Source: Methanosphaera stadtmanae (GTDB lineage Archaea > Methanobacteriota > Methanobacteria > Methanobacteriales > Methanobacteriaceae). Taken from it: DNA of 64,000 nt. Under the pieces are notes generated by a model. The model had not been told where the DNA came from, made no database searches, and saw nothing but the letters and a program-made list of their open reading frames with translations. This document shows positions 34,160-64,000 of the stretch, piece after piece. The position numbers and the translations under genes were made by a program. How positions within the stretch are numbered: the first letter of the stretch is position 1; each line of letters begins with the position of its first letter. The stretch spans positions 1 through 64,000 of the forward strand of contig SUTR01000002.1 of assembly GCA_015062825.1 (NCBI GenBank), given 5' to 3'.

Positions 34160-34576
34160 CTATTTCATGTTATCTAACTCACCAGTTCCTGCACTGGTTA
34201 GTTTTACGTGTTCTACACCTTTTAATCTCATGATTTTTTCTGTTAGGTCTCGTATGTAAATAACATCACCTTTTACGATGATGACTTCCAGACAGTAATT
34301 ATCATTCATATGAATATGTAGACTTGCACTGATTTGATTTCTGTATTCATGTTGTATGTCTGTTAATGATTCCATTACGCCTACATAATGATGATCATAT
34401 ATTACAGCTACAACTCCAACACGTTCTCCTTCCATTTCATTCATCCATTGATAACGGAGGATGTAATCTTTTAATGCATCACGTATACCCTTAGAACGGG
34501 ATTGATATCCCCTATCTCTAAGTACCTCATCAAATTCATTTAGTAATTTGTTAGGTAAAGACATACTTATTCTCAT
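34160..34576 (-). CDS. nikR: Nickel-responsive regulator NikR
   Basis: 138-aa RHH/CopG N-terminus (MRISMSLPNKLLNEFDEVLRDRGYQSRSKGIRDALKDYI) and ACT-like metal-binding C-terminus (YRNQISASLHIHMNDNYCLEVIIVKG). Confidence 0.93.
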   Translation of the reverse strand: MRISMSLPNKLLNEFDEVLRDRGYQSRSKGIRDALKDYILRYQWMNEMEGERVGVVAVIYDHHYVGVMESLTDIQHEYRNQISASLHIHMNDNYCLEVIIVKGDVIYIRDLTEKIMRLKGVEHVKLTSAGTGELDNMK

Positions 34577-51457: not shown

Positions 51458-53185
51458 TTAATTAAATGTTTTACAGATTTCCATTGCATCTTCATAATCT
51501 CTATTTACAATCTTAGCAAATAATTCATTATATGAATCAGGACATAGATTTCTATTAAGCAATACTTTAAATAATGGATATCCCTCATCAAATATTTCAA
51601 CATATTCATCAAAGGGTATTTTTTGATTAAATACATTTAACCTTAGCATATACATAATTTTACTATATAATACATTTTCTATGAAAATATTTTCAATATT
51701 CTTTTGCTTGCTAATTTTGTACATCATATTATATGATTTTAATCTACCCATTCTTGTTGAATGATTTGAAATGTATGATACTGATGGATTCTTATCTTTA
51801 TTTCTTCTTAAATTGTGGTTGTAGATACAGTTTGGTATGAATACTGTTTTTTTAGAATTGACCATTGCATCAAATAGGAAATAACTGTCTTCTGCCGGAA
51901 TATATTCAGGAAATGTTATTTTATTTTCTTTGATAAAATGTACATTGAATAGTTTATTGGTAACGGAATATTCTTTCAGGATAAATGGATAATCCCTAAC
52001 ATCATTTATTATTAATTCTTCAGATGCTTCATAGTATTTCATTAATTCAGGTATTATCACATGTTCTAGTTCATATTTTTCTTTGTCTTGCGTTGAATCT
52101 CTTTCAATCAAATGTGTTCCAAATACCATGTCGGCTTCATGTTCTATTATTTTATTGAGTAATATTTCACAGGCATCCTGAATCAGGACATCATCTGAAT
52201 CTAAAAACAATACATAATCGCTAGATACATAATTAAGGCCTTTATTTCTAGGTCTTCCAGCAAACAAGCTATTTTTATCAGTACTGAGTATTTTTATATT
52301 ATCATAGTTATTTTTTAATTCTATGAGTATATTTAAACTATTATCCGTTGAACAGTCATCTACGAATATTATTTCTATCTTGTTAAATATGCTTTGATTC
52401 AATATGGACAGGAAACATTTTTCAATATAATTTTGAGTATTATATACAGGTATTATTATAGTCATTAAGTATTGTTTACTGTTGAATTGAATTTTCTCTA
52501 ACAATTGAGCGTTATTATTTGTTAACAGATACTCATATTTATTATAGTTACTGTCTAATTTTATATTGTTATATTGTGCTTGTTTTTGTAAGTAATGAAT
52601 TTTTTCTAAATTAACCTCATTGTCCTTTAACAATGCTTCATTTTGTTTATTTATCACAGCGACTGTATCTGTTAACTGTTTATTCTGATTCTCCAAGTTA
52701 CTTATTTTTTCTATTATATTATCATATTCGTTTATCTTGGACTTTAAATCGGCATTTTCAGATTCAAGGTGTTTAATGGTATCATTCAACTGTTTATTCT
52801 GAATCTCCACAGAATTAACCATATCACCTATCTTATCATATTCTACCATTCTAGAATTAAGATTATTATTTTCAGATTCAAGGTGTTTAATGGTATCATT
52901 CAACTGTTTATTCTGAATCTCCACAGAATTAACCATATCACCTATCTTATCATATTCCTTTATTCTGGAATTAAGATTTGCATTTTCAGATTCCAGATAA
53001 GTGAGTTTATCATTTTGTTTCTTTAGCTTATTTATTTCCTGATTTTTATGGTATATTTGAAATCTATTATTTCTTAGTAATAAAGTGTTTTTTCTATTAG
53101 TTTCTACCAATTCTTCATATGAATTTTTATAAAATACATATGCTTTACTTCTATTTAATATTATTTCCTTAATACGATCAATCAT
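51458..53185 (-). CDS. Family 2 glycosyltransferase with N-terminal coiled coil
   Basis: LMTIIIPVYNTQNYIEKCFLSILNQSIFNKIEIIFVDDCSTDNSLNIL; FLDSDDVLI; N-terminal heptad-like repeats. Confidence 0.92.
   Translation of the reverse strand: MIDRIKEIILNRSKAYVFYKNSYEELVETNRKNTLLLRNNRFQIYHKNQEINKLKKQNDKLTYLESENANLNSRIKEYDKIGDMVNSVEIQNKQLNDTIKHLESENNNLNSRMVEYDKIGDMVNSVEIQNKQLNDTIKHLESENADLKSKINEYDNIIEKISNLENQNKQLTDTVAVINKQNEALLKDNEVNLEKIHYLQKQAQYNNIKLDSNYNKYEYLLTNNNAQLLEKIQFNSKQYLMTIIIPVYNTQNYIEKCFLSILNQSIFNKIEIIFVDDCSTDNSLNILIELKNNYDNIKILSTDKNSLFAGRPRNKGLNYVSSDYVLFLDSDDVLIQDACEILLNKIIEHEADMVFGTHLIERDSTQDKEKYELEHVIIPELMKYYEASEELIINDVRDYPFILKEYSVTNKLFNVHFIKENKITFPEYIPAEDSYFLFDAMVNSKKTVFIPNCIYNHNLRRNKDKNPSVSYISNHSTRMGRLKSYNMMYKISKQKNIENIFIENVLYSKIMYMLRLNVFNQKIPFDEYVEIFDEGYPLFKVLLNRNLCPDSYNELFAKIVNRDYEDAMEICKTFN
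52755..52957. repeat. Perfect 89-bp direct repeat (period 114 bp = 38 aa) within the glycosyltransferase coiled-coil region
   Basis: ttttcagattcaaggtgtttaatgg...cctatcttatcatattc at 52755-52843 and 52869-52957. Confidence 0.93.
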
Positions 53186-55618: not shown

Positions 55619-55655
55619 TTAGTATAAAGTATTACAAATTGTAGGTTTATACTAA
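55619..55655. promoter_or_regulatory. Perfect 10-bp inverted repeat TTAGTATAAA-N17-TTTATACTAA upstream of the DUF2162/ExbB/DUF2149/CobN operon
   Basis: Arms 55619-55628 and 55646-55655; also a second nested pair GTATTAC (55629-55635) / GTAATAC (55661-55667) immediately before the RBS and ATG at 55681. Confidence 0.6.
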
Positions 55656-55680
55656 AAAAAGTAATACTGGAGGTGTTACT

Positions 55681-56382
55681 ATGTTAGAAATGTTATGGCA
55701 ATTAGGAATATTGTCTGCTGTACTAATTTTTGGAATAAAAATAGGCATGGCTATGGGTTTTGCTGGTATAACAAAAAAACAAGTACTTTTAATATCCCTA
55801 ATTAATGCAATTAGCATAATTATTCTATCAGTACTATGTGAACCATACACAGATTCATTATATCAAATAATCAATCAATATAGTTATGTACTTTTTGGAT
55901 TAATGGCCATAATCATTTTCATAACAGGTATTAAAACAATAAAAGATTGGAAATCAAATCAAAAAGATCATGCAACAGCAACCTGTTTAGCTTTAATTGT
56001 ACCATGTCCTTGTTGTATAGCCGCAATACTTGGTTCAATAATTATTATAGCACCTATAATAAGTATATCAACTTTATTATTAGGTAGTCTATCAGCATTT
56101 TTATTGATGTTAGTGATTGTAATATTTTATTTCTTATCTGAAAAAATCGTGCAAAAAATAAATAAACCATACCCTGTGGTACTTGGAAATTTTATGATCT
56201 TTGTAGGTTTATATTTTTTAATTGCAATGAGTATTTTACCAAATTTAAGCAGGGCATTATTAGATAATTATGATTCATTTTCATTTAATATACCTTATGA
56301 ATTGTTGGGTATTTTTGGAGTGCTGGCTCTAGTAATTATACTAGTATACTACATTGAATCAAAAACAAATTATTTAAATTAA
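55681..56382 (+). CDS. DUF2162-like multi-TM predicted transporter
   Basis: 233 aa, six to seven TM; CLALIVPCPCCIAAILGSIIIIAPIISIS motif; first gene of an operon with ExbB-like and CobN-like proteins. Confidence 0.75.
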   Translation: MLEMLWQLGILSAVLIFGIKIGMAMGFAGITKKQVLLISLINAISIIILSVLCEPYTDSLYQIINQYSYVLFGLMAIIIFITGIKTIKDWKSNQKDHATATCLALIVPCPCCIAAILGSIIIIAPIISISTLLLGSLSAFLLMLVIVIFYFLSEKIVQKINKPYPVVLGNFMIFVGLYFLIAMSILPNLSRALLDNYDSFSFNIPYELLGIFGVLALVIILVYYIESKTNYLN

Positions 56383-56392
56383 TGGTGATAAT

Positions 56393-57034
56393 ATGGCAGC
56401 AATAACTGCAAGTGGAATATTAACTACTATAATAAATGTTATAGCAGAAAGTCTAATTATTCCAGTGTTAATATTATTAGTAATATTCATATTATTAGTT
56501 TTAATTCAATTGGGTGGTGTTTTAGCAGAATATTCACATCGTGTTAAACTATCAGACAAAGAATTAGATAATATTATTAATAGTATTAATGATTCAGAAA
56601 ATTCAGAACAGATTATTAAAATAATTAATGAAAGTAAATTAAACAACAATATTAAAAAAATATTAATAAAAATTACTAATATTGATAATTTAAAACCAAA
56701 TACAAAAGAGGCATATATTCGCAAAATTATTGAAAATGAAGAATATAAATATGCACAGACTTTAAGAAAAACAGAAATTATAACAAGAGTTAGTTCTGGT
56801 TGTGGATTACTAGGTACTTTAATTCCATTAGGTCCTGGACTTGCTTCTTTAGGAACTGGTGATATAGCAACATTATCATCACAATTAATAATTGCATTTA
56901 ACACTACAACAGTAGGATTAACATGTTCATTAGTATCTTATGTTATTTCTAAAATTAGAAAAATGTGGTATAATAATGACATTAGCTTAATTTATACTAT
57001 TAGTGAAGCAATATTGGAGGCTAAAAATGATTAG
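56393..57034 (+). CDS. MotA/TolQ/ExbB-type proton channel protein
   Basis: TRVSSGCGLLGTLIPLGPGLASLGTGDIATLSSQLIIAFNTTTVGLTCSLVSYVISKIR is the ExbB/TolQ core signature. Confidence 0.9.
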   Translation: MAAITASGILTTIINVIAESLIIPVLILLVIFILLVLIQLGGVLAEYSHRVKLSDKELDNIINSINDSENSEQIIKIINESKLNNNIKKILIKITNIDNLKPNTKEAYIRKIIENEEYKYAQTLRKTEIITRVSSGCGLLGTLIPLGPGLASLGTGDIATLSSQLIIAFNTTTVGLTCSLVSYVISKIRKMWYNNDISLIYTISEAILEAKND

Positions 57035-57341
57035 AAAAGGTACCACATCATTTCTTAATGATGAAGAGGAAGACCCTACAGCTAGTTTAGTTAATATGGT
57101 TGACATTATGTTAGTATTAGCAGTAGGATTTTTAATACTTGCAATTACATCAACAGGAATTATGGATGTACAGTCCCAATCCCCACAGTCACAGCCTCAA
57201 ACTCAACTGGTAAATGTTGAAGAAGGACAGGAAATTCCAAACAACATTGCTCAAAGTGATAGTTCAGGTTCAGGATATTCACAAGTAGGTGTTGTTTATA
57301 AAGATCCAAAAACTAACCAATTAGTTATGGTAGATACTTAA
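57027..57341 (+). CDS. DUF2149 ExbD-like protein
   Basis: MIRKGTTSFLNDEEEDPTASLVNMVDIMLVLAVGFLILAIT; start revised to ATG 57027 with ggagg RBS (track start is GTG at 57003); overlaps the ExbB-like stop by 8 nt. Confidence 0.8.
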   Translation: MIRKGTTSFLNDEEEDPTASLVNMVDIMLVLAVGFLILAITSTGIMDVQSQSPQSQPQTQLVNVEEGQEIPNNIAQSDSSGSGYSQVGVVYKDPKTNQLVMVDT

Positions 57342-57356
57342 TGTGAGTAGGATATT

Positions 57357-60300
57357 ATGAATATAAATTTATTTAATGATAAAAAATATTTATTAATAAT
57401 TTGTATTTGTATAATCATCCTAGCATGTACAACCAATGTTTATGCAGATTCCGAATATAATAGTAAAGATTTAGAAACTATTGATAACGGAACAGTCAGT
57501 GGAGGACTTTATTCTGATTCATATCTTGGATATGATGAAAATAATGTGAATATAAATTATTCAAGTACCTATAAAAAAGATAAAAGTACGTCTTCCAATA
57601 ACAATAAAAATGTAACAAATATGGATGATTCTACAATACCAGGAACTAGTTATAATAATCATGAAAACAATGTTGAAACAAAATTTGACGATAGAAATGT
57701 TACTTACATTTACAAACCATTACCATCTAATGCTAAGATAAAATCTGCACATTTAATGGTTGCAGTATATATGGCCAATATGAACAGAAACTATCCTGTT
57801 CCTATTGAATTGACATTTAATGGAAAAACTCTTGTAAATGAAACATTAAGCTCTACATATTCTAATTCAGAAGGCCCTGTAATAATTAATGATAATATAA
57901 ATAGGGTTACTAGTGACTATCTTATACATTTTAATGTAACGGATGATGTTGAATTAGATGGCAATTATGTCCATATTGACTTAACTAAATCACAGACCGC
58001 TAATGTTAAAATGGCAACATTACTCATTGCTTATGATGACGATGATTATGATTTGTATTATTATACTATCAATTATGGTCATGATGTTGTTAATATTGAT
58101 GATTACAGTTCATCCACAAGATTTCAAGGAGTTTATTCCGGTTCAAGAGTATATGATGCACAGCTTACCGCATATTATTTAGCAAGTGTAAATGCCGCAT
58201 ATAAATTTAATGGACGTAGCTTGGACAATATCCAACCACAAGGAGGATATGACGGTTATTGTTCTTGGAATATTACAAGAAGATATCATGTTGGTACTGA
58301 TAATAATATTTTAGAATATTCAAGATTAGGTTCATATTTTAAAATTTTTGCATCAACAATGCTTGTTAAATTCTATAATTCAAATATGTTGCCAGACTTG
58401 ACCGTGACAAATGTTAGAATAAATCCTAATAACTATGAATATAATAATTCAATATTCCTCGATAATGAAAATGAAATCATCGTTGATTTAGAGAATATTG
58501 GAGCAAGAAAAGCAAATGAGTTTAATGTAACATTGACATTAAATGATGAAAATTATACTGAAAGTGTAGATTCATTAGATACATTTGAACATAAATCAGT
58601 AGTATTTAATGTGGATTATAATAAAAATATTACCAATGTAAACTTAACTGTTACTATTGACAAAGATAATCAAGTATCAGAAGTTTCACGTATAAATAAT
58701 CGATATAACATTACAACAGATACAGCATATACAAGATTTCCAGATTTAACTATATCCAATATCATATTAGATGATAATATAGTACTGAAGAATAAGACAA
58801 ATATCAAAATCAACATAACAAATAATGGACTTTTAAAATCCAATAACTTTACAATAGATATATACATGTCTGATGATGTATCTAGAAAACTAATAAAACA
58901 AAGCAAAATAGATCAATTGGAAATAAATCAGTCACAATTAATAAATGTGGATTGGACACCATCTGATTATGGATTATACACAATGGAAATCATTATCACA
59001 TATGATGACAAGGAAATGAATTATACCAATAATCAGATGAATTATACTATAATAGTCAATAACCCAAATAAGCTATCCATATTTATCATAAGTGATAATT
59101 CAGGTACTAACTCATTTAATCAAGCAAGTAAGGCAGTATTAGAAGATTACGCTGGATTAATAGATATACAGATTCGTACAGATAATCAAGCAGTTACAAT
59201 GTCAAATCAAGAATTGACATCATATATGGAATCTGCAGATATAGTAATAGCCGAATGGATTAGTTCCGGTGTTTATGAAAAATTAAATAATATTCTTAAA
59301 GACAATCCTCATATTATAAATAATAAGTTGAATAAGATTTTCTTAATATTAGAACCACCTGTATCTACTACAGCAAGTTCTGTTAATATAATTAAGAATT
59401 CTACATTTTATATTAGAGGAGTAAATAAAATAGCCCAATTAAGTAATGTTAGTAGCGAATTACTATATGATTATTATTTTAATACAACAAGAGGCCTGAA
59501 TTATTCCAGTGTACATGATTACATAGATAACATTAGTACCATTCCAACATTATACAACCAAGCAACATTATACAAAGATTTAAGTAGCGTTGACGGATAT
59601 AGAAATATGCTTTTATGGTTACTTAACTCAATGAATTCCAAATTATACAATAAAACATATACATTACCACCAAATCAATTACATACCCCTACATATGGTA
59701 TTTATCGTGAAAAATGGTATTCAACAATAGATAATGAAGGAAACTGGATTGATGGATATGAAGAGTATGCAAAGGAATATATTAATTCCAGCAGACCTAC
59801 TATTGGAATAATTGAAAGTAAAATGTATGTTGATTCACAACAATTACAACCATATTATGCAATCATATCCAAACTTGAATCCATGCAATTAAATGTCATT
59901 CCTATTGTAGCTTATGGTGGAACAAATGAACAGTTAGAAGTAATGTTAAAAAGTTTTACTAATGAAAGCAGACTTGAAGATATTACATTAGATTCAGAGA
60001 TTCGTATTGATGCAATGGTAAATATGGTAGCTTATGGTTTAGGTGGAACTGACTTTGATAAAGTTACCCCATTCTTCTCAAAATTAAACATACCTATATT
60101 AAAAGCAGTACATTCAGATTATGTATCAAATACTGAATATACCTTAGGAACTACAGGTCTGGGTGCGCTAGGAGGAGATAAATGGTGGCATATTGCTATT
60201 AGTGAAGCTCAAGGAGCGGTTACTCCAACGTTTGTCGGAGGATATGCATATTCAATTGATAATGATACAGGAGCATCCATAAGCGGATATGTTCCCCATG

Positions 60301-63300
60301 ATGGAAATATTGAAGTATTGTGTAATAGTTTATACAATTGGGCTTTGCTAAAACATTTAGCAAATTCCGATAAAAAAGTAGCAATATTATATTACAATTA
60401 TCCACCAGGAAAACAGAACATAGCTGCAAGTTATATGGATCCTGTTGAAAGTACATTGAATTTATTAAATGTACTTAAAGATAATGGATATAATGTCAAA
60501 AACATACCTAAGAATTCAACAATACTTCTTGCACAGATGTTATCACAAGGTACCAATGTTGCAAATTGGGCTAATGGACTTGTAGAAGTAATGGTGGACT
60601 TCAATAATTCATCATATGATGAAATTTATGGATATCAATACAATAATACTTATAAAATAGATTTAGAAAATATGAGTGAAGATGAAATAAATGCTCTCAA
60701 AGACACTCCAGGAGTTTTATTATATCCTGTTTCTAAGTTTAAATTATGGTATGATCAATTGGATGAAATCAATAAATTAACCATATCTGAAGGACCTGTA
60801 GCATATATTGGAGAATATTCAAGAATGGCAGTGCAACTAAACTACAGTAACTTTACCGAAAATATTGATGACTGGTATAATGGAATAAAAGAATTAATTC
60901 CAGCAACAAAGGTTAATTTAGTTCTTCCATTAATCAATAATGTAACTTCATTACTTAAGAATTATGTACTTACTGCAAATGAAACATATTATAATGAATA
61001 TCTTAAGATTAAAGAAGAATTTTTAACTTATAATATTGAAGGATTATCTGGTTGGGGCGAGTTTCCAGGAAATATTATGGTAGTAGAAAGAGATGGAATA
61101 AAATACTTTGTACTTCCAGGTATCCAATATGGTAATGTATTTATCACACCTGAACCACAAAGAGGATGGGAAGGAAATGCAGAACAATTATACCATAATA
61201 CAATAGTTCCTCCACACTACCAATACTTAGCACTTTACTCTTATTTACAAGATGAAGGTTATAATGCAATGGTGTTCATGGGAAGACATGGTACACATGA
61301 ATGGTTATCAGGTAAAGAGGTATTGTGTTCAGATACGGATTTTACCACAGTAATGACTGGTGCAATTCCACAGATATACTTCTACATTACTGATGGTTTA
61401 TCTGAAGGATTAACTGCAAAACGTCGAGCATCTGCAGTAATCATAGACCATTTAACCCCTCCTATGACATTGACCAATTTATATGGAAATCTTTCATATA
61501 TTCATACATTAACCGAAGAATATGAAGTAGGAGATAAGGACAAAAGGGTAGAATTGGCTCAAGAAATTCGTGAAATCATATTATCTGAAGAATATGATAA
61601 GGATATGCAAATAAATGTCTCATCATTAGATGATGATGAATTAGTTTCAGAAGTAAATGATTATATAAATAGTCTGACAAGTACATTATATCCATATGGT
61701 GTACATGTTATCGGACAAAATTGGTCCGATGAGGAAATAGCGTTACTTGTAACTTCCATGTTATCCTCAGAATATGAATATAACCAAGCAGGAGACACAA
61801 CATCACTCCTTAATGAAATGGCATACCTTTTAGATAATAAAGAATATCTTAATTTAAGTAATTCTAAAAGAAGTATTGTTCAAACAAATAGTTTAAAATT
61901 AGTCAATGATTTAATCAGATATGGATTAAATGATACATTGAATAATTTAACAGACAATCCTTCAGAAGGTCTTTTGAAAACCTGCCAACTAGCATTAGAA
62001 TATGTCAATAATTTAAAACAAAGTACCGAAAATGAAATTAAAAGCTTCTTGAATGCATTGAATGGAGGTTATATTGAACCAGGCAGTGGTGGCGATCCAA
62101 TAAATAACCCTAAGGCTATTCAAACAGGTAAAAACTTTTATCAAGATCAATCATCAGAAGTGCCAACCAAATCAGCATATGAAAAATCAAAAGATTTACT
62201 AGACATTACAATAAAAAGCCTTGATAACAACACCAGAAAAATAGTTCTTGGAATATGGGATACTGAAACTGCCCGTGATGACGGTCAATTAATTTCATTA
62301 GTGCTAAGATTATTAGGAATGAAACCAACATGGTCTTCATCACCTAGTGCCGGAGCAGATGGTAAAAAACTAAGAGAAACACCAGAATATGAAGAATTAG
62401 AAGATATGTATAGGCCAGATGGTTATAATAAAACAAGAATTGATGTTGTTATTGTATTAGATGGTAATTTTAGAGATTTATACAGTCGACAAGTAGGATT
62501 ATTAGATAAGGCATTTAGAATAGCATTAGCACGTTCTTACAATACTATCATTAACAATCAAACATTAATTGATGAATATGGAGATAAATTATTAGAAGCC
62601 ATAGATCCTGTTATGGAAGGTATTGGATATTACGGAGTATCTTCTGAAACATTAGATGAAAATGCAGTTGCAAAAGATTGGATTGAAGACTTTAAATATT
62701 ACATGTCACTTAACATGACACCAGAACAGGCAGGTGAATTTGCAATTAGCCGAATCTTTGCACCTCCTGAAAGTGATTATGGAGCATTAATTAGTCAAGC
62801 AGTTAGACAAAGCTGGACATTTAATGATACGAAAGATTTAGCATTAAAATACATTAATCGTATGGGATACATTTATTCAAGCAATAACTGGGGAACATAT
62901 AACTCCAAAGTATTAGAAAGATTGTTAAATTCAACCACATCATTATATACCAGTAGAAATACGAATTTATATGGTGTAATAGATAATGACGATTATTTCG
63001 ACTATTGGGGAGGATTATATAATGCTATGGGCTATATTAATAATAAAGACATATCCTTTAATGTAATTAGATATGGTGAAAATATAAACACCACCATAAC
63101 AGAAATTGGTCAGTTCTTAAAAAGAGAAATGAATACAAGATATTATAATCCACAATGGATTAAATCCATGATGGAAGAAGATTATGCAGGTTCTAGTTAC
63201 ATGTCCAAATTTGCATCAAACCTTTATGGTTGGGCATCAGTTACCGATAAAGTAACAAATAAAGATTGGGATAATATGGTCAGTGTTTACATCGAGGACA

Positions 63301-64000
63301 AATATGGATTAGGTGTTACTGATTTCTTAAATAATGGATATAATTCCTATGCAATGATATCAATGACAGGAACATTATTAACAGCAGCCTATGAAAGTAA
63401 ATGGAAAACTGATGATGATACATTAAGAAAAGTTGCAAATATTTGGGCTCAAAATGTAATAGATAATGGTGTAGCATGTTGTGATTGTAGTTGTGGAAAT
63501 GTATTGATGATGGATTGGTCTTTGAAATTTATTAATCCAGATTTAATGTCTAGGTTAAAAGCCAAATTGTATCAAGCAACCCAAGATAAACGATTCTTTG
63601 AAGATGGATATGGTGAGAGTGATAATGAAAATGGAAATGTTAATGGAACCTCAAATGAAACAGGTAACACAACAGAAAATGAAGGCATAAACACTACTGG
63701 AAACAGCACAGGAGACAATACTGGAAACAGCACAGGAGACAATATAGGTAATAGTACCGGAGAAAATACTGGAAACAATACTGGTGAAAATCCCGGAAAC
63801 AATACTAGCAATATAAATACAAATAGTACTTCGCCAATAAACAATACCAATAGCAATAATACTTCAAATGATACTCCAGCATTAACACCTACAAATACAA
63901 CTAACCCAACAGACAGTACAACACCAACAAACAATACAGACTCACCAACACCTATAAACAACACATCAGAGAACAATACACCAACAACCAACAGCAACAA
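57357..64000 (+). CDS. Exported CobN/magnesium-chelatase H-family protein with DUF3344-like and CARDB-like domains and Thr/Asn-rich C-terminal linker (open at window edge)
   Basis: ATG at 57357; frame checked at 61278, 63591 and 63960. Signal peptide MNINLFNDKKYLLIICICIIILACTTNVYA; ectodomain YIYKPLPSNAKIKSAHLMVAVYMANMN; CARDB-like PDLTVTNVRINPNNYEYNNSIFLDNENEIIVDLENIG; CobN motifs MGRHGTHEWLSGK and YFYITDGLSEGLTAKRRASAVIIDHLTPPM; C-terminal NSTGDNTGNSTGDN linker. Confidence 0.9.
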   Translation, partial: MNINLFNDKKYLLIICICIIILACTTNVYADSEYNSKDLETIDNGTVSGGLYSDSYLGYDENNVNINYSSTYKKDKSTSSNNNKNVTNMDDSTIPGTSYNNHENNVETKFDDRNVTYIYKPLPSNAKIKSAHLMVAVYMANMNRNYPVPIELTFNGKTLVNETLSSTYSNSEGPVIINDNINRVTSDYLIHFNVTDDVELDGNYVHIDLTKSQTANVKMATLLIAYDDDDYDLYYYTINYGHDVVNIDDYSSSTRFQGVYSGSRVYDAQLTAYYLASVNAAYKFNGRSLDNIQPQGGYDGYCSWNITRRYHVGTDNNILEYSRLGSYFKIFASTMLVKFYNSNMLPDLTVTNVRINPNNYEYNNSIFLDNENEIIVDLENIGARKANEFNVTLTLNDENYTESVDSLDTFEHKSVVFNVDYNKNITNVNLTVTIDKDNQVSEVSRINNRYNITTDTAYTRFPDLTISNIILDDNIVLKNKTNIKINITNNGLLKSNNFTIDIYMSDDVSRKLIKQSKIDQLEINQSQLINVDWTPSDYGLYTMEIIITYDDKEMNYTNNQMNYTIIVNNPNKLSIFIISDNSGTNSFNQASKAVLEDYAGLIDIQIRTDNQAVTMSNQELTSYMESADIVIAEWISSGVYEKLNNILKDNPHIINNKLNKIFLILEPPVSTTASSVNIIKNSTFYIRGVNKIAQLSNVSSELLYDYYFNTTRGLNYSSVHDYIDNISTIPTLYNQATLYKDLSSVDGYRNMLLWLLNSMNSKLYNKTYTLPPNQLHTPTYGIYREKWYSTIDNEGNWIDGYEEYAKEYINSSRPTIGIIESKMYVDSQQLQPYYAIISKLESMQLNVIPIVAYGGTNEQLEVMLKSFTNESRLEDITLDSEIRIDAMVNMVAYGLGGTDFDKVTPFFSKLNIPILKAVHSDYVSNTEYTLGTTGLGALGGDKWWHIAISEAQGAVTPTFVGGYAYSIDNDTGASISGYVPHDGNIEVLCNSLYNWALLKHLANSDKKVAILYYNYPPGKQNIAASYMDPVESTLNLLNVLKDNGYNVKNIPKNSTILLAQMLSQGTNVANWANGLVEVMVDFNNSSYDEIYGYQYNNTYKIDLENMSEDEINALKDTPGVLLYPVSKFKLWYDQLDEINKLTISEGPVAYIGEYSRMAVQLNYSNFTENIDDWYNGIKELIPATKVNLVLPLINNVTSLLKNYVLTANETYYNEYLKIKEEFLTYNIEGLSGWGEFPGNIMVVERDGIKYFVLPGIQYGNVFITPEPQRGWEGNAEQLYHNTIVPPHYQYLALYSYLQDEGYNAMVFMGRHGTHEWLSGKEVLCSDTDFTTVMTGAIPQIYFYITDGLSEGLTAKRRASAVIIDHLTPPMTLTNLYGNLSYIHTLTEEYEVGDKDKRVELAQEIREIILSEEYDKDMQINVSSLDDDELVSEVNDYINSLTSTLYPYGVHVIGQNWSDEEIALLVTSMLSSEYEYNQAGDTTSLLNEMAYLLDNKEYLNLSNSKRSIVQTNSLKLVNDLIRYGLNDTLNNLTDNPSEGLLKTCQLALEYVNNLKQSTENEIKSFLNALNGGYIEPGSGGDPINNPKAIQTGKNFYQDQSSEVPTKSAYEKSKDLLDITIKSLDNNTRKIVLGIWDTETARDDGQLISLVLRLLGMKPTWSSSPSAGADGKKLRETPEYEELEDMYRPDGYNKTRIDVVIVLDGNFRDLYSRQVGLLDKAFRIALARSYNTIINNQTLIDEYGDKLLEAIDPVMEGIGYYGVSSETLDENAVAKDWIEDFKYYMSLNMTPEQAGEFAISRIFAPPESDYGALISQAVRQSWTFNDTKDLALKYINRMGYIYSSNNWGTYNSKVLERLLNSTTSLYTSRNTNLYGVIDNDDYFDYWGGLYNAMGYINNKDISFNVIRYGENINTTITEIGQFLKREMNTRYYNPQWIKSMMEEDYAGSSYMSKFASNLYGWASVTDKVTNKDWDNMVSVYIEDKYGLGVTDFLNNGYNSYAMISMTGTLLTAAYESKWKTDDDTLRKVANIWAQNVIDNGVACCDCSCGNVLMMDWSLKFINPDLMSRLKAKLYQATQDKRFFEDGYGESDNENGNVNGTSNETGNTTENEGINTTGNSTGDNTGNSTGDNIGNSTGENTGNNTGENPGNNTSNINTNSTSPINNTNSNNTSNDTPALTPTNTTNPTDSTTPTNNTDSPTPINNTSENNTPTTNSN

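Follow-up and report, generated by a model that had tools for sequence, protein, structure and literature searches.

We examined a 64,000-nucleotide (nt) stretch of the archaeon Methanosphaera stadtmanae (hereafter the window), whose final 8.3 kb (55681-64000) carries four co-directional genes encoding a DUF2162 membrane protein, a MotA/TolQ/ExbB protein, a DUF2149 protein and a giant CobN-family protein. The reading frames of the ExbB and DUF2149 genes share 8 nt, and the remaining intergenic gaps are 10-15 nt. The CobN gene leaves the window, and its full reading frame, followed beyond that point, stops at contig position 64790. An earlier note on this DNA had described such a tightly packed unit with an exported, surface-domain-bearing CobN protein. 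Both descriptions hold: Pfam matches run from 1.1e-8 (MotA_ExbB) to 4.8e-216 (CobN), and the CobN protein has a signal sequence, DUF3344 (8.5e-31), two CARDB domains and a C-terminal transmembrane helix. The features are as follows.

55629..55667, no strand assigned: inverted-repeat operator GTATTAC-N25-GTAATAC, candidate NikR-type site (0 mismatches)
55681..56382, plus strand: DUF2162, polytopic membrane protein of 233 amino acids (aa) (PF09930, E 2e-58)
56002-56016, plus strand: PCPCC motif of DUF2162, aa 108-112
56393..57034, plus strand: MotA/TolQ/ExbB-type channel subunit, HmuU homologue (PF01618, 1.1e-8)
57027..57341, plus strand: DUF2149, ExbD-like subunit, HmuV homologue (PF09919, 6.9e-14; ExbD, 1e-3)
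57357..64000, continuing to contig position 64790, plus strand: CobN-family exported protein, 2477 aa (PF02514, 4.8e-216)
57357..57446, plus strand: signal peptide MNINLFNDKKYLLIICICIIILACTTNVYA (sequence and hydropathy; putative cleavage site)
57462..58367, plus strand: DUF3344 surface domain, aa 36-337 (E 8.5e-31)
58740..59039, plus strand: CARDB domain, the better of two, aa 462-561 (domain match)
59586..60635, plus strand: N-terminal part of the CobN region (PF02514 positions 8-341)
60900..63425, plus strand: CobN catalytic body (PF02514 positions 299-1090)
61281..61304, plus strand: GRHGTHEW, holding the equivalent of catalytic HmuS His538 (alignment)
62985..63014, plus strand: NDDYFDYWGG, a CobN-type Asp-Asp where HmuS and BchH have Asp-His (alignment)
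63468..63500, plus strand: Cys cluster GVACCDCSCGN, also carried by most exported archaeal CobN and by the CobN of Trichlorobacter
34160..34576, minus strand: nickel-responsive regulator NikR (NF002169, E 5.6e-69; NF003381, 3.9e-40; single match in the genome)

The exported CobN protein and its membrane partners

From its N-terminus, the CobN protein consists of a signal sequence, the DUF3344 and CARDB domains, the chelatase region, a stalk rich in Ser, Thr and Asn, a transmembrane helix and a short basic tail; the signal sequence and the C-terminal helix predict that it is anchored at the cell surface. Towards the C-terminus of the chelatase region, most exported archaeal CobN proteins and the Trichlorobacter CobN carry a cluster with the consensus G(V/I)xCC(D/H)(C/H)(S/T)C(G/A/K/N/S)N, which was found in 0/11 HmuS and 0/8 cytoplasmic-type CobN/ChlH proteins examined. 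DUF2162 has a cysteine motif of its own, PCPCC, at every CobN-linked archaeal locus examined (PCPVC in Trichlorobacter), and this motif is lost in 8/9 DUF2162 proteins linked to FmdE without CobN. The CobN Cys cluster and the DUF2162 motif could both pass on a soft metal.

The two smaller partners belong to a known motor family, with a MotA_ExbB domain in one and, in its ExbD-like partner, a protonatable transmembrane aspartate. This aspartate (aa 26 of DUF2149) is 100% conserved across archaea and Bacteroidota, and the transmembrane threonines of the ExbB homologue are likewise invariant. Family membership and these residues are shared with the ExbB/ExbD, TolQ/TolR and MotA/MotB motors; the difference is that the window cluster revealed no separate TonB-like energy transducer, for which the C-terminal helix of CobN may substitute. 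Given the adjacency of the genes, the invariant aspartate and threonine and an HmuS-like topology, ExbB-DUF2149 probably energises the anchored CobN, although we hold this with some reserve.

Conservation of the unit

Within the phylum 138/154 genomes have DUF2149, and within the order 97/120 have CobN. We surveyed about 60 regions picked by DUF2149 or CobN matches, classifying their genes with profiles built in this analysis; hit rank and contig decided which regions were taken, and the numbers that follow are therefore counts, not frequencies. DUF2162 accompanies 48 of the 63 adjacent ExbB-DUF2149 pairs, Trichlorobacter included. CobN lies within 9 kb of 24 pairs, and DUF2162 is present at 23 of these; the lone pair without it (L099) belongs to an adjoining cluster. 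The four-gene unit is conserved across Methanobacteriales, as would be expected from the link between CobN, the ExbB/ExbD-type proteins and DUF2162 proposed in the earlier note.

The M. stadtmanae genome has only one other CobN, on contig C92 (L010; G000:C92:35001-55000), at a locus that also carries the DUF2162-ExbB-DUF2149 triplet. Genes for an Ig-repeat surface protein and an ATPase come after the triplet there, and then one for an exported CobN of 1947 aa that belongs to a different clade (CCHHTC cluster, GTHGTLEW). A third triplet, on contig C6 (L011; G000:C6:14000-27000), has FmdE and the cobalt/nickel transporter subunit CbiM in place of CobN, the gene order being an exported protein with two FmdE domains, a small transmembrane protein, CbiM, a 161-aa transmembrane protein and then the triplet. 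Because this genome holds both a second full set and a third triplet next to FmdE and CbiM, the grouping of the four genes is far beyond chance. Across the survey, CbiM lies within 9 kb of 15/63 ExbB-DUF2149 pairs, and at L114 FmdE-CbiM-CobN-DUF2162-ExbB-DUF2149 form a single cluster.

Most of the 15 pairs that lack DUF2162 have as neighbours large surface proteins of other kinds, which carry a signal peptide and a C-terminal transmembrane segment. This suggests that ExbB-DUF2149 serves Methanobacteriales as a general motor for surface proteins, DUF2162 being a marker of metal-related cargo. The C-terminally anchored giants beside such pairs at L088, L093, L094, L096, L097, L101, L102, L104, L105 and L131 are of beta-helix, PKD or unassigned type. 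A literature search turned up no publication on DUF2162.

Operators, riboswitches and published data

The GTATTAC-N25-GTAATAC operator ends 13 nt before the DUF2162 start codon. In a free-spacing scan (8-38) of the 2.6 Mb genome, the inverted repeat was found at 5 places, each with N25 or N26 spacing; the reversed control gave 1. Perfect sites precede the window operon, a heavy-metal P-type ATPase and two further operons, one CbiM-PDGLE-CbiQ and one NikABCDE-like; the fifth is near cbiD. This last site (L250; G000:C87:52726-52764) has no clear target gene, the cbiD start being about 1.2 kb off. One-mismatch operators precede a second NikABCDE-like operon and the surface-protein gene after CobN. 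The substrate-binding protein of one NikABCDE-like operon, the one tested, matches TIGR02294 at 1.2e-36. In other genera, sites at no more than one mismatch occur in 9/44 CobN leaders, 3/13 FmdE leaders and 0/15 ExbB-only leaders, where about 0 are expected. The sole NikR detected in the genome lies within the window (34160-34576) and has an intact His/Cys site, HIHMNDNYC. An operator common to nickel transporters and a NikR gene in the same genome are both in place, as a NikR regulon would have them. CobN genes of the window's genus that lack the triplet (L124-L126, L227) have a different upstream repeat, AGTGTATT...AATACACT, possibly the target of another regulator. A Sigma-70 style promoter scan gave chance-level results, the Sigma-70 model not being suited to archaea. 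Elsewhere in the window, on the minus strand at 52769-53026, near-identical heptad blocks are repeated inside a coiled-coil glycosyltransferase gene.

A bacterial counterpart is on a Trichlorobacter lovleyi plasmid (pGLOV01/pSZ77, Glov_3667-3675; PMC3403914), which ranks second among plasmid matches to the CobN core of the window. Its DUF2162-ExbB-DUF2149-CobN order is identical to that of the window, and its anchored CobN has the Cys cluster and the DD motif, without the DUF3344 and CARDB domains. It differs further in its extra TonB, ExbB, ExbD and two outer-membrane receptors (full order: TonB receptor, DUF2162, ExbB, DUF2149, CobN, ExbB, ExbD, TonB, TonB receptor) and in its setting. The cluster is flanked by anaerobic B12 biosynthesis genes and cbiMNQO, and its first gene is immediately preceded by a pair of cobalamin riboswitches (107 and 65 bits); such a riboswitch was found in 0/7 archaeal and hmu control loci. 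The Trichlorobacter CobN lacks a CobS/CobT partner, and its role is given as unknown (PMC3403914). This bacterial sister group is represented here by one record. The top-scoring plasmid CobN, in Marinobacter sp. M3C (L233), adjoins a cobalamin ATP-binding cassette uptake operon, cobO and bluB, and no DUF2162, ExbB or DUF2149 was found at that locus.

Published data bear on the unit through Methanothermobacter, where the same four genes occur in the order CobN-DUF2162-ExbB-DUF2149 (MTBMA_c10520-10570 / MTH670-673). That cluster differs from the window in that an exported FmdE gene precedes it, CobN comes first and is split into three open reading frames in the marburgensis-like genome, and no surface DUF3344 or CARDB domains are reported. 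Published work treats it only as a CobN-like nickel chelatase (PMC3087415) and as a 'Transporter' in nickel-limitation proteomics (PMC12350162). PMC3087415 equates amt2 with c10450 and the CobN-like chelatase with c10550-10570, and exactly 9 genes lie between amt2 and the split CobN in the marburgensis-like region L266. By that count, c10520 is DUF2149, c10530 is ExbB and c10540 is DUF2162. According to PMC12350162, Ni2+ and Fe2+ limitation raise the corresponding transporters, and a legend there lists 'Transporter, MTBMA_c10530', placing it among transporters that rise under metal limitation, presumably of nickel. Among Methanothermobacter-like genomes, those of L266 and L074 have a CobN broken into three or four open reading frames, and those of L267, L269 and L270 an intact one.

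Relation to Hmu, rival explanations and a proposed model

The earlier note had likened the unit to the hmu heme loci of Bacteroidota, and had taken its small membrane proteins to be of the same kinds as theirs. We collected 80 Bacteroidota hmuS loci using an HmuS fragment, and compared the window protein with HmuS (structure 9d26) using published active-site and heme-ligand residues (PMC12583661). The likeness in layout is extensive: a CobN-family protein that is exported and has a membrane segment at each end, a membrane protein of about 233 aa, and homologues of ExbB and DUF2149. The archaeal ExbB profile detects HmuU (down to 2e-42) and the DUF2149 profile detects HmuV (down to 1e-14), HmuV itself matching Pfam DUF2149 at 5e-35, so that HmuU and HmuV are, by sequence, true homologues of ExbB and DUF2149. 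The identification does not extend to HmuT, which we rejected as a DUF2162 protein despite its same position and length: there is no Pfam hit or overlap, the hhalign probability is 2%, and DUF2162 matched above its cut-off in 0/398 Bacteroidota genomes. Predicted folds of DUF2162 and HmuT (mean predicted local distance difference test scores of 78 and 87) gave no match in the PDB at E <= 0.001. The full HmuT, HmuU and HmuV partner set is therefore incomplete in the window, DUF2162 standing in the HmuT place.

The CobN protein presents a similar mixture. HmuS is its closest solved structure (phmmer, top PDB match, 4e-81), and like HmuS it is predicted to combine the PF02514 fold with membrane anchors at both termini and a location outside the cytoplasm; a gradient-driven chelatase or de-chelatase, as the earlier note envisaged, is plausible. 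In a tree of 59 CobN cores, HmuS forms a single clade (support 100), the 8 cytoplasmic-type proteins group together, and the window CobN falls inside a 14-row clade of exported archaeal CobN (support 100); the tree is a quick one with long branches, and its deeper joints are unsure. The catalytic His538 of HmuS, in HFG(T/A)HG, is retained in the window's GRHGTHEW, with different neighbouring letters. Where HmuS has LSLDHxxEFMGG, with His1209 and Glu1212, the window CobN has IDNDDYFDYWGG; its DD at the H1209-motif place is shared with cobalt-type CobN of Sinorhizobium and Deinococcus, whereas BchH and HmuS have DH. Neither heme site 1 ligand, Met79 or His254, is recovered: His254-Gly-Arg aligns with AYGLGG, and the Met79 region aligns poorly. 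HmuS in turn lacks the Cys cluster and is partnered by a TonB receptor and a hemophore. Because the HmuS motifs are replaced and the DD is that of cobalt-type CobN, the window CobN is not an HmuS, yet it may work like one. The Hmu-like reading thus stands for the shared HmuU and HmuV homologues and fails on HmuT, the separate HmuS clade and the exchanged H1209/E1212 motif.

That the four genes form an archaeal heme system, with CobN as an HmuS-type de-chelatase supplying iron, would account for the top PDB match, the HmuU and HmuV homologues, the common topology and CobN-(membrane protein)-ExbB-DUF2149 gene order, and the retained His538. We consider it very unlikely, and rejected heme use as the principal explanation on residues, clade and regulon: the LSLDHxxEFMGG motif and His254 are missing, an unrelated DUF2162 occupies the HmuT place, HmuS forms its own clade, and the archaeal unit lies within a Ni/Co-type regulon with neighbours of that type rather than iron genes. 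The operator, NikR, the CbiM neighbours, the cobalamin riboswitches and the published proteomics favour nickel or cobalt over heme, and the earlier note's view that the substrate could not be told from sequence was too pessimistic. Least credible of all is that the protein serves cobalamin or F430 synthesis as an ordinary cobaltochelatase. MTBMA_c10550-10570/MTH673 was proposed as a nickel chelatase for F430 (PMC3087415), and the NCBIfam label is CobN, yet all NCBIfam CobN models score far under their own cut-offs on the window protein, and its signal peptide and transmembrane anchor are predicted to place it outside the cell. As for a cytoplasmic AAA+ partner, a search of the genome gave short, partial PF01078 matches and no Mg-chelatase-type ATPase of full length, the CobS/CobT families not being searched; this agrees with the point in the earlier note that a protein outside the membrane lacks ATP.

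Two other explanations keep the protein at the surface while changing what it does there. A forward chelatase could work outside the cell to load a metal-free tetrapyrrole with Ni or Co, yielding a metallophore that is then taken up. The CobN and ChlH chelatase fold runs in the insertion direction, and riboswitch-controlled TonB receptors flank the bacterial copy, as metallophore or corrinoid uptake would require. This seems improbable to us, since no exported metal-free ring or exporter for it was identified in this analysis, and within this class chelatases other than HmuS require ATP (PMC12583661), which is lacking outside the membrane. Somewhat less improbable, though still unlikely, is that ExbB-DUF2149 drives C-terminally anchored surface proteins in general and that the CobN domain has no catalytic function, serving as an adhesin that binds metal or corrinoid. 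The DUF3344 and CARDB domains would suit such a role, as would the 15/63 pairs without DUF2162, most of which have large surface proteins of beta-helix, PKD, DUF11 or unassigned type next to them. Against it, the protein has a long, strongly conserved chelatase core in which the catalytic His is present, and DUF2162 and Ni-type operators follow CobN and FmdE cargo, not beta-helix cargo.

We therefore prefer to read the four genes as a nickel- (possibly cobalt-) starvation operon for a gradient-energised surface de-chelatase, to which, with the chemistry left open, we give a probability of roughly 0.57. Under NikR as the putative operator-binding regulator, the CobN-family protein would be kept outside the cell by its C-terminal helix, where ExbB and DUF2149, an ExbB/ExbD-type motor running on a proton or sodium gradient, would pull or reshape it. 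CobN would then open metal-tetrapyrroles (F430, corrinoids) or similar chelates, freeing Ni2+ or Co2+, which might pass from its C-terminal Cys cluster to the PCPCC of DUF2162 and on to the cytoplasm, or might enter through the co-regulated CbiMNQO and NikABCDE importers. Its parts differ in strength: a role in nickel or cobalt acquisition is likely, whereas tetrapyrrole de-chelation as the route has slightly less than even odds in our judgement.

Several observations weigh against the starvation-operon reading. Many DUF2162-ExbB-DUF2149 sets have no CobN nearby, and the paralogous set L010, with most CobN of its clade, lacks the operator. At 2 mismatches the operator scan equals its control (42 v 41), so that weak sites are meaningless. 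Published bacterial NikR sites have N13/14 spacing (PMC545781), and because the N25 here exceeds it, NikR binding at 55629-55667 is only a prediction and another regulator is possible. The text of PMC12350162 does not state in words that Ni rather than Fe caused the rise of c10530. CobN is in three open reading frames in the marburgensis-like genome (L266), and is therefore not essential there unless read through. Cobalt and nickel are also not separated, the bacterial copy looking cobalt- or corrinoid-like and the archaeal copy nickel-like.

A 2025 study of HmuS called the use of HmuS/CobN/ChlH homologues by Archaea unclear (PMC12583661). A widespread archaeal CobN branch is now tied to a four-gene unit, a candidate nickel-type operator and a riboswitch-controlled bacterial sister unit. 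It is conceivable, though we regard it as doubtful, that methanogens strip Ni from F430 outside the cell (and their relatives Co from corrinoids) by means of an anchored chelatase run in reverse by a gradient, in parallel to HmuS and distinct from it. Nickel is a growth-limiting metal for methanogens. If this were true, gut and sediment methanogens could recycle nickel at the cell surface from the cofactor of their own key enzyme, and ExbB/ExbD-type energising would extend to large surface proteins in cells that have no outer membrane.

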